IMG/VR virus record: IMGVR_UViG_3300027763_000036
Span: 1-64,000 of that record
Length of the DNA: 64,000 nt
Strand: one strand, 5' to 3'
Origin: a virus
Shown here: one piece after another, positions 7,633 through 16,578 of the stretch
Layout: each line of letters opens with the position of its first letter
Position numbering within the stretch: position 1 is the first letter of the stretch
Program-made: the position numbers and the translations under genes
The notes under the pieces: generated by a model
What the model was told of the DNA's origin: nothing
What the model saw: the letters and a program-made list of their open reading frames with translations, nothing else
The model's database searches: none

Positions 7633-7661
7633 AATGTTTAGTTTAGTTAATAAGTAGATAG

Positions 7662-7735
7662 TGATCCTGTTTGGATTCGAACCAAAGACCTATTGCTTAG
7701 AAGGCAATTGCTCTATCCAGCTGAGCTACAGGACC
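7662..7735 (-). tRNA. tRNA-Arg (anticodon TCT)
   Basis: This is a 74-base cloverleaf on the minus strand. The acceptor stem GGTCCTG pairs with CAGGATC (one G-T). The D arm contains AGCTCAGCTGGATAGAGC. The anticodon stem ATTGC/GCAAT holds loop CTTCTAA, giving anticodon TCT (codon AGA). The T arm has GGTTCGAATCC. The discriminator is A and CCA is not encoded. AGA is by far the most frequent Arg codon in the genes around it, so the tRNA matches the phage's codon demand. Confidence 0.96.
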
Positions 7736-11164: not shown

Positions 11165-11746
11165 AACTTAATATTTTTTAGTGTGAGGACTTGCCTGTGC
11201 TAGGTACACAGGACTTGGGTGTTAATAATAATATTGATTGTGCTCAATATTTAAATAATAGACAAGAGTGTAACAATATCCTACATTGCTACTAGACCGC
11301 TGAGTCATCACTTGAATTAAACTGAATTCCACTTCAGTCAGCTGTATTCTCCCAAGTGGAATCTTGTATAAGAGAATAGATAATGGCATACCACATATTA
11401 CTGCTGCGGTCAACAGGTTCACACTGCCGGATTACTCCCGTGTATAACACTGCCTAGTTTAAATTAAACTCACATAGCTTTATCAATACTATGTGTAAAA
11501 TACCTGATTTTTAAGTCTGCACTAACTTTGGATTATATCACTGCAAATGATAAGTAGCACTATAAATCTCTTTGCAGGAGAAATACAGAACCCAATAGTA
11601 GCCCCACAGGTTTGTCACTGTTTGCTAACAGTAATGAACTTTGCTTGACATCAACAACCCCGTCAAGTATAAACTTGAGTGTAAACCGTATAGAGTGCAA
11701 AGGTTAAAAACTCCCCCTCAGTTATTTACAGTTGATGTACTAATTA
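11165..11746 (-). ncRNA. Candidate structured RNA region with eight perfect hairpins
   Basis: Within 480 bases lie eight perfect stems: 11194-11199/11207-11212 (6 bp), 11230-11237/11244-11251 (8), 11326-11334/11354-11362 (9), 11456-11462/11464-11470 (7), 11471-11477/11489-11495 (7), 11541-11547/11571-11577 (7), 11617-11622/11627-11632 (6) and 11644-11649/11662-11667 (6). The minus-strand motif AATCTTTAATAA, used as a promoter in the cassettes at 13.8-15.6 kb, stands just upstream at 11745-11756, overlapping the stop of the neighbouring gene. No convincing gene is present. Boundaries are approximate. Confidence 0.45.
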
Positions 11747-11992
11747 TTAAAGATTATCCATAGAGATAATGCTATCAAGGTCACTATATGTACCTTGATA
11801 AACATTACCTTGTAAAGATTCAACTTTAATATTGTTTTCAGATACTTCAAGGAAGTATTCTGTTTTAATGTGCTTAGAAGCTTTCGCGGGAGTTTCTTTC
11901 TTTACAATAACATGTAGTATTACATGTATAAGTATAGAGAAGGAAACACATCCAAGTATAAAGCCAATAAGGAATGAATCATTTGATTTCAT
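11747..11992 (-). CDS. Small membrane-anchored protein
   Basis: With the start at 11992 the product has 81 residues. MKSNDSFLIGFILGC begins a single transmembrane helix (to about residue 30), followed by a basic stretch and an acidic, beta-rich C-terminus (YFLEVSENNIKVESLQG). A longer frame starts at 12037 but would cross a terminator at 12017-12041, so I chose the inner ATG. The stop codon overlaps an AATCTTTAATAA motif. Confidence 0.65.
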   Translation of the reverse strand: MKSNDSFLIGFILGCVSFSILIHVILHVIVKKETPAKASKHIKTEYFLEVSENNIKVESLQGNVYQGTYSDLDSIISMDNL

Positions 11993-15494: not shown

Positions 15495-15613
15495 AAAAAA
15501 AAAACAGGGAACGTCTTCCCTGCTTTGGTGGCTTTGTAGTATCAACACTGATTCCATATAGAGGCCTTACTATGGGTGTTGGCTATAACTCTCTTGGCTA
15601 TAGACTTTATATT
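15495..15613 (-). ncRNA. Candidate small RNA of a gene-less cassette
   Basis: This cassette has the promoter-like motif (15614-15625) and a strong terminator (CAGGGAA 15505-15511 with TTCCCTG 15516-15522, then ten Ts on the minus strand) but no start codon at the usual 26-base position and no closed frame before the terminator. A transcript of about 110-120 nt would result. It carries imperfect internal pairings (CCATA with TATGG, a doubled TTGGCTATA). Confidence 0.5.
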
Positions 15614-15625
15614 TTATTAAAGATT
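15614..15625 (-). promoter_or_regulatory. Cassette promoter-like motif, rightmost copy
   Basis: AATCTTTAATAA on the minus strand. It is the outermost member of the train, next to the strand switch. Confidence 0.6.
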
Positions 15626-15690
15626 AAAAAGAAAGAAAGACAGAAAGATAGTGGCGCAGCCACACCTATAGAATGAATGATGAGTAAGGC

Positions 15691-15903
15691 ATGTGTGGCA
15701 AGCCATAGTATAAATGCTTTAAGTGTTGGCCTCAAGGGTTGGCTAAAGTATTTATGCTTGGCGCGCAGGTGTGTGGCAAGAGCATTTACTAAGGCTTAAG
15801 TCTGAACGATAGAGAAGGCTAAAGTCTTAGTAAGTGCTCAGTGCGTGTGTGCAAAGGCAGAGAAGGCAAAGGGCTGAAGTATGAAGCAGCTTGCCTTCTG
15901 CGC
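15691..15903 (+). ncRNA. Three-unit hairpin array RNA
   Basis: Three tandem units of about 77 nt each start with a shared linker, TGTGTGGCAAG at 15692-15702 and 15770-15780 and TGTGTGCAAAG at 15846-15856, followed by a long hairpin. Helix 1: 15702-15721 with 15744-15762 (19 bp, one bulge). Helix 2: 15780-15797 with 15822-15839 (18 bp without interruption). Helix 3: 15861-15869 with 15891-15899, capped by GCTG/CAGC (15873-15890). The stem sequences differ between units. Helices 1 and 2 contain four G-U wobbles, which pair only in RNA copied with the plus-strand sequence. No coding frame fits. No known family recognised. Confidence 0.6.
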
Positions 15904-16197
15904 GGTGGCGGTTAATAGTCACTTAGTCATTACATAGTATATTTACTTAGCCTTGGCATAGCATGCACACCCTTGGATCACTAGTCATGTAGCACAAGCA
16001 TAGTCTTAGCATCCACATGTCTTTGCTTTGCTAGGTAGCTAGAAACTTTTCTGCTGAGAAAACATTTGCAAAATATTTCTGTAACACAGGTTTTTGCTTC
16101 AGATTTCATGGGGGGTGGCTCCAGTCTCCTTGGCCCCCGGGGGGTCAGTTACATATGACCCACCACAACCTCTCCAATAAAATATTTCTCCTACCGG
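15904..16197. other. Gene-free strand-switch region, locally GC-rich
   Basis: These 294 bases separate the two arms and hold no convincing gene. After the hairpin array comes a stretch echoing its motifs (ACTTAG twice, AGCCTTGGCATAG). A GC-rich patch at about 16110-16162 follows: a G-run pairs with a C-run around GGCTCCAGTCTCC, and GGGTCA pairs with TGACCC. It may be part of the same RNA, its end, or a control region for both arms. Confidence 0.4.
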
Positions 16198-16228
16198 TTT
16201 GGAGTTTTAAAATATAGTTTTATATTTG
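16198..16228 (+). promoter_or_regulatory. Bacteroidota promoter for the right arm
   Basis: TTTG at 16198-16201, 19 bases, then TATATTTG at 16221-16228. This matches the Bacteroidota primary sigma consensus (TTTG, about 19, TAnnTTTG) in both boxes and in spacing. It is the best promoter in the window and faces the plus-strand arm. Confidence 0.8.
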
Positions 16229-16311
16229 CAACATAATTTTAAGGGTTAATAAGTAACAATAGGTCTGGAGTTGAAAGCCCAGGCCTTTGTTATGTTATTT
16301 AAATTTGTTAT

Positions 16312-16578
16312 ATGGAAAAATGGAAGATATTCTTCCTATATGTATTTGCTTTATGTATGGGAATTGCTATTGCTTGTTCTATGTCTGGGTGTAAGTCTCC
16401 GCAGAATTGTGATGCCTATGGTTCTTTTGATATTAAAGGGTATGAGTATGTCCAGGTTATTGGTTATACAGATACTATGCCTACCTTGGGTGAGAACTTA
16501 ATTCATCTTCCTATAGGGGAGTATGAACTTAGAGTCTGGGAAAGTGGGCAGTCTAAAGTATTGAAAGTTAAATTATAA
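16312..16578 (+). CDS. Lipoprotein
   Basis: The product has 88 residues. A hydrophobic signal sequence is followed by ACSMSGC, a lipobox with acylated Cys at about residue 27, then KSPQNCDAYG and a beta-rich domain. CDAYG after the lipobox also occurs in the small lipoprotein at 8338-8475. First gene after the strong promoter; possibly an early envelope protein or exclusion factor. Confidence 0.75.
   Translation: MEKWKIFFLYVFALCMGIAIACSMSGCKSPQNCDAYGSFDIKGYEYVQVIGYTDTMPTLGENLIHLPIGEYELRVWESGQSKVLKVKL

Follow-up and report, generated by a model that had tools for sequence, protein, structure and literature searches.

An apparently new structured phage RNA with a conserved 5′ module and a variable chain of long hairpins

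Locus and anatomy of the element

The window is the whole stretch of DNA that we analysed: the first 64 kb of a 113,521-base virus record that is, judged from its proteins, a divergent crAss-like phage from freshwater. Its large terminase shares 23–26% identity with those of crAss-like and Flavobacterium/Cellulophaga phages, its muzzle protein matches Pfam crAss_MUZ, and its portal and major head proteins have PHROGs matches; from these relatives, and from TATATTTG promoter-like sequences, we infer that the host probably belongs to the Bacteroidota. Genes run on the minus strand left of 15.6 kb and on the plus strand right of 16.3 kb, where the first rightward gene starts at 16312 and encodes a putative lipoprotein with no Pfam match. 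The element under study ends ~400 nt short of that gene and has a cluster of small minus-strand genes around it, most of them without known domains; PADLOC gave no match among the ten proteins neighbouring the element. Side by side with these features, we find a Hatchet self-cleaving ribozyme among the minus-strand small genes (window 11502–11638, minus strand; 81 bits against a cut-off of 51), a tRNA-Arg (TCT) that is the only tRNA found in the record (window 7661–7735, minus strand), and, at window 16101–16310, a conserved G-rich spacer (GGGGGG...CCCCCGGGGGG) and a CAAAGGTCTGGAGTTGAAAGCCC(G/A)GGCCTTTG hairpin, both present in many relatives with or without the hairpin array. Farther along the record (68.5–89.3 kb; L236 4452–11948 and L236/L237 from 11948 onward) lie very large proteins of 2498 aa and more, where crAss-like phages may keep their virion RNA polymerase; a domain search of the first of these (L236 4452–11948) returned weak nuclease-domain matches only.

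The pattern AATCTTTA(A/G)TAA has eleven minus-strand copies between window positions 11755 and 15625 and a single plus-strand match elsewhere in the genome (36496), and the copies examined have a terminator on one side and a start codon on the other. Because of this location, after terminators and before start codons, the repeats look like a phage-specific promoter of single-gene cassettes.

The element itself spans ~290 nt of the plus strand, from about 15630 to about 15922. The original prediction, an array of three units at 15691–15903, had the right location, with ends that fall short of the real element on both sides. A 5′ module (GAAAGAAAGAC, a GUGGC/GCCAC hairpin, then GAAUGAAUGAU), holding two invariant boxes of 11 nt each, is followed by long hairpins on G/U-rich single-stranded linkers. 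The features are as follows.

15612 to 15626, minus strand: promoter-like repeat AATCTTTAATAA, adjoining the element; one before each small minus-strand gene
15631 to 15641, plus strand: 5′ box GAAAGAAAGAC, invariant in 8/8 distinct members, including the hairpin-less L092
15651 to 15663, plus strand: small hairpin of the 5′ module, GUGGC-GCA-GCCAC; stem in 8/8, with loops GCA, GUA, UUUA or GCAA
15671 to 15682, plus strand: 5′ box GAATGAATGATG, with GAATGAATGAT invariant in 8/8; single copy in the window
15691 to 15702, plus strand: linker copy 1, 1 mismatch to GTGTGTGGCAAG
about 15702 to 15762, plus strand: hairpin H1, an optional unit, missing from L083, L088 and L090
15769 to 15780, plus strand: linker copy 2, 0 mismatches to GTGTGTGGCAAG
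15780 to 15839, plus strand: hairpin H2, whose compensatory changes are two-sided; G-U pairs number three, and A-C is absent
15804 to 15815, plus strand: H2 apical loop GAACGAUAGAGA, part of the repeated motif CUGAANGNUANNGAAGG; constant while the lower stem changes
15845 to 15856, plus strand: linker copy 3, 2 mismatches to GTGTGTGGCAAG
15857 to 15903, plus strand: hairpin H3, with apical loop GAAGUAUGA at 15876–15884
15905 to 15922, plus strand: possible small closing hairpin GUGGC...GUCAC, which appears when the window, L090 and L087 are folded

With three linkers located and folds far beyond those of shuffled sequence, the tandem hairpin array is real, the linker being repeated faithfully in copies 1 and 2 and imperfectly in copy 3. 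Chance would give 2.9 such linker matches per 64 kb; the three found lie on the same strand within a 166-nt span. H2 has the 18 uninterrupted pairs ascribed to it, then an A·A mismatch and five further pairs (−32.6 kcal/mol, z −8.2). H1 comprises 15+8+4 pairs, interrupted by a bulge and by a gap (−28.4 kcal/mol, z −5.0); its base is homologous to H1 of L084, L085 and L087, and its tip has been swapped for a longer stem in the window. H3 is weaker, with 8–9 pairs, an internal loop and 3 pairs (z −2.0). No plus-strand promoter is recognisable at the element, and one may reside within the 5′ module, for which we considered an N4-style hairpin promoter (5-bp stem, 3-nt loop) as a candidate reading. 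Nor does the element have a clear plus-strand intrinsic terminator in the window, the interval between the array and 16312 included. A short frame starting in GAATGAATGATG (MND...) was rejected as a conserved peptide because its length and sequence vary between members.

Members, hairpin variation and exchange of the cassette

Using the neighbouring peptidase-like gene as query, we retrieved 80 IMG/VR loci. Scanned as exact patterns, the 5′ module, H2 and H3 recover one common small set of contigs, except that the H3 pattern misses L084, in which the H3 tip is extended; a fourth scan, for the 5′ box and hairpin, adds L092. After collapsing identical copies there are eight distinct members, all from IMG/VR: the window, L083, L084, L085, L087, L088, L090 and L092. 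The loci L010, L017, L018/L019, L023, L051 and L064 are further labels for these same contigs, and L086, L089 and L091 are identical to L090 over the module. The contigs of L086 and L089, which come from different samples, break off at one identical base within the GTGGC/GCCAC palindrome, the first base of the element that each contains; this could reflect a true end or a break in assembly where a base varies. Neighbouring-protein searches found no further members, and a loose apical-loop scan of viral contigs added none, a model search of 15 among the matches listed giving no match.

Seven of the eight members carry both H2 and H3, in the one order of 5′ module, optional H1, H2 and H3, with H1 present in the window, L084, L085 and L087. 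L092 has the 5′ module alone, followed by a terminator-like hairpin. The number of long hairpins per member ranges from zero to three, so the array is not a fixed set of three units as had been proposed: relatives carry two, three or none. Besides the linker, the hairpins repeat an apical motif, CUGAA..GAAG, which window H1 has lost. The apical tips are CUGAAUGCUAAUGAAGG for H1 of L010, L051, L084 and L085, CUGAACGAUAGAGAAGG for H2 and CUGAAGUAUGAAG for H3; the motif CUGAANGNUANNGAAGG occurs in two hairpins in L051, L084 and L085 and in one in the remaining arrays, and forms the H1 tip in L010, L084 and L085. The hammerhead order CUGANGA...GAAA is missing from the apical motif by eye, and a self-cleaving ribozyme was rejected. 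The lengthened H3 tip of L084 and the replaced H1 tip of the window show that units can be re-tipped. The initial description of a constant linker with a variable stem captures part of this architecture and omits the conserved apical loop and the more strongly conserved 5′ module; the 5′ module and the H2 apical loop vary less than the linker, so the linker is not the principal constant feature.

The position of the element varies as well. Two minus-strand genes flank it in L051 and L085, where a terminator-like hairpin follows downstream and where it cannot serve as leader of the next gene. The strand switch, and the very early transcript that the prediction attached to it, therefore do not define the position of the element, which in these two members is inside a minus-strand gene cluster. 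The adjacent minus-strand gene varies among members, making it less likely that one protein partner is encoded beside the element, and the element was not found in several relatives longer than 80 kb that we searched. The clearest comparison is between L010 and L012, whose flanks are 97–99% identical on both sides: ~650 bases in L010, comprising the element and a small gene, are exchanged for ~330 bases without the element in L012, which retains the spacer and the rightward genes. The exchange within near-identical flanks identifies the element as an accessory cassette, and it behaves as an exchangeable one. The exchange sites (L010 1726–3200, L012 2274–3420) adjoin the promoter-like repeat, and these repeats may be the recombination sites of the exchange.

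Structural constraint at the RNA level

Plus-strand RNA from 15640 to 15940 folds at −116.2 kcal/mol (z −6.1 against shuffled sequence) and minus-strand RNA of the same interval at −74.7 kcal/mol (z −3.1); the plus strand folded as DNA has z −5.3. When every 80-nt window of the 113.5-kb genome, on either strand, is ranked by folding energy, the array region takes places 1, 3 and 4, with H2 at the top; of the uninterrupted plus-strand stems found in the record, that of H2 is second in length. The hairpins predicted in the window contain 11 wobble pairs, each of them G-U in plus-strand sense, the four G-U pairs named beforehand are all present, and H2 has no A-C opposition in the six sequences tabulated. 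A DNA structure would predict about equal numbers of A-C and G-U.

We built a model-fitted structural alignment of seven distinct sequences, covering 35 pairs of H2 and H3. Such an alignment leans toward its own structure; in it, 99.2% of cells are paired, a figure that none of 500 shuffles reaches. Two-sided changes affect 11 of the 35 pairs (0/500 shuffles; at most 3 in slid versions), ten of these 11 tracing to one lineage split (L084/L085 versus the rest), so that independent covariation events are few. Every sequence preserves each of the 21 pairs counted in H2, and in ten of these both partners have changed; comparison of the window with L084 shows nine H2 pairs altered two-sidedly and none one-sidedly. 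The H2 lower stem of L084 and L085 differs in sequence and pairs in the same way, the H2 loop CUGAACGNUAGAGAAGG is retained across lineages (one base short in L087), and H3 contributes a compensatory pair, GCC/GGC in L085 versus GCU/AGC elsewhere. Among close relatives, identity is 92–98% in H2–H3 and 96–98% in the 5′ module, against 73–89% in the adjacent non-coding spacer and 86–88% in the neighbouring peptidase gene. The stems are kept as pairs in relatives despite two-sided changes, as the original prediction expected of a structured RNA, and the element is under structural constraint at the RNA level.

Over the element, Rfam 15 gives no match at gathering score, and the matches of a permissive search are all to microRNAs and lncRNAs and stay far under the cut-off (the best, mir-1502, at 29.9 bits versus 66). 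We found no match by blastn among named phages and plasmids, and scanning 84,980 genomes of bacteria and archaea for the pattern gave 12 matches in scattered unrelated taxa, taken as chance; a model search of 198 Bacteroidia genomes found none, a weak negative given its strict filters and lack of a positive control. Literature searches, mainly of freely readable papers, returned no description of the element, and we know of no structured RNA gene described in crAss-like phages. The idea of a new structured plus-strand RNA is strongly backed by the plus-strand fold, the paired alignment, the plus-only wobbles and the lack of an Rfam gathering-score match: apparently, this is a new phage RNA that belongs to no Rfam family.

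Proposed role and comparison with known systems

The element is very probably a genuine functional plus-strand RNA, and it is probably transcribed as a separate RNA rather than as a leader. On sequence grounds we lean, somewhat beyond an even chance, toward a stand-alone plus-strand non-coding RNA gene, for which a multi-site decoy or scaffold would be the leading function; that role, taken by itself, is put forward tentatively. The RNA would act in trans as a multi-site molecule, in which the repeated apical motif, which can form tandem sheared G-A pairs, and the linkers would offer identical docking sites to one host or phage protein. The long stems would serve as spacers, free in sequence provided that pairing is kept, and the RNA would titrate or scaffold the docked protein during host takeover. 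Window H1, being without the apical motif, weakens the docking-site idea, and L092, with its 5′ module and no hairpins, suggests that the module may have a separate role.

Several other explanations account for part of these data. The hairpins could be a 5′ untranslated region acting in cis on RNA polymerase or mRNA stability, like HK022 put or EAR, and the window array does face the rightward genes from 16312 with no clear intrinsic terminator between; however, L051 and L085 have their next gene on the opposite strand, L012 keeps its spacer and rightward genes without the array, and the first of those genes is ~400 nt away, which makes a leader unlikely. Less probable still is a minus-strand boundary element, in which the 5′ module is a terminator that shields the minus-strand gene after it, the hairpins being bystanders. 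The GUGGC..GCCAC stem and its T-rich tract do resemble a weak terminator on the minus strand in the window, L051, L085 and L064, and L092 retains the module without hairpins, but this account leaves unexplained the conservation of H2 and H3, the plus-strand wobbles and the two invariant 11-nt boxes; the 5′ module may have minus-strand termination as an additional role. A DNA element, forming a cruciform or single-stranded hairpins for replication, recombination or packaging, would fit the good folding of the plus strand as DNA, the strand switch adjoining the array in the window and the G-rich conserved spacer close by. It would have to treat the G-U excess as coincidence, whereas every window-hairpin wobble is G-U on one strand, the position varies among members and several long relatives appear to do without the element; we consider it very improbable.

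The RNA could also be anti-defence or immune-triggering, expressed early as an accessory and occupying a host defence protein that senses dsRNA or RNA; this is a variant of the decoy model, from which our data do not separate it. Adenovirus VA RNA, a decoy, and cabRNA, which activates CBASS, offer comparisons. Gain and loss between near-identical phages, the long near-perfect helices and the setting among small, mostly domain-less minus-strand genes speak for it; the PADLOC result speaks against it, and we give it a small chance. Returning to the stand-alone RNA, the broadest version is comparably speculative: a fixed head with an expandable chain of dsRNA-like hairpins, each bearing the same apical motif, might disarm or hijack one host protein, possibly in RNA-sensing defence, and diversify by hairpin gain, loss and re-tipping. 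Host-takeover and counter-defence genes often show such cassette behaviour, and a defined RNA, a covariance model and mutable motifs provide a handle for testing for a protein partner.

Known systems share some of these traits. ToxI, of type III toxin-antitoxin systems, likewise consists of tandem repeated RNA units, but the units here are long hairpins with differing stems; no recurrent toxin-like gene lies beside the element among the members compared, and in place of a same-strand downstream toxin gene there is an opposite-strand gene in L051 and L085 and, in the window, the putative lipoprotein gene ~400 nt away. HK022 put and EAR, which are processive antitermination RNAs, form stem-loops early in a phage or operon transcript, whereas the element is not consistently upstream of a same-strand gene and in L051 and L085 leads no same-strand operon. 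The structured phage RNA cabRNA derives from terminase genes and activates CBASS (PMC10686824); our element is instead in a non-coding cassette about 11 kb from the large terminase gene. GOLLD and ROOL are large structured RNAs found in phages (PMC12286853). The element resembles them as a structured phage RNA and differs in being a short linear chain of simple hairpins, with no Rfam match, rather than an ornate single fold. RNAs of the CsrB/RsmZ type sequester protein through several hairpins that display a repeated apical motif. That motif, ANGGA, is absent from the hairpin loops of the element, whose apical loops are GAACGAUAGAGA and GAAGUAUGA. The element too combines multiple hairpins with a repeated apical motif, in a form of its own: CUGAA..GAAG in place of ANGGA, on stems of 20+ bp, and carried by a phage.
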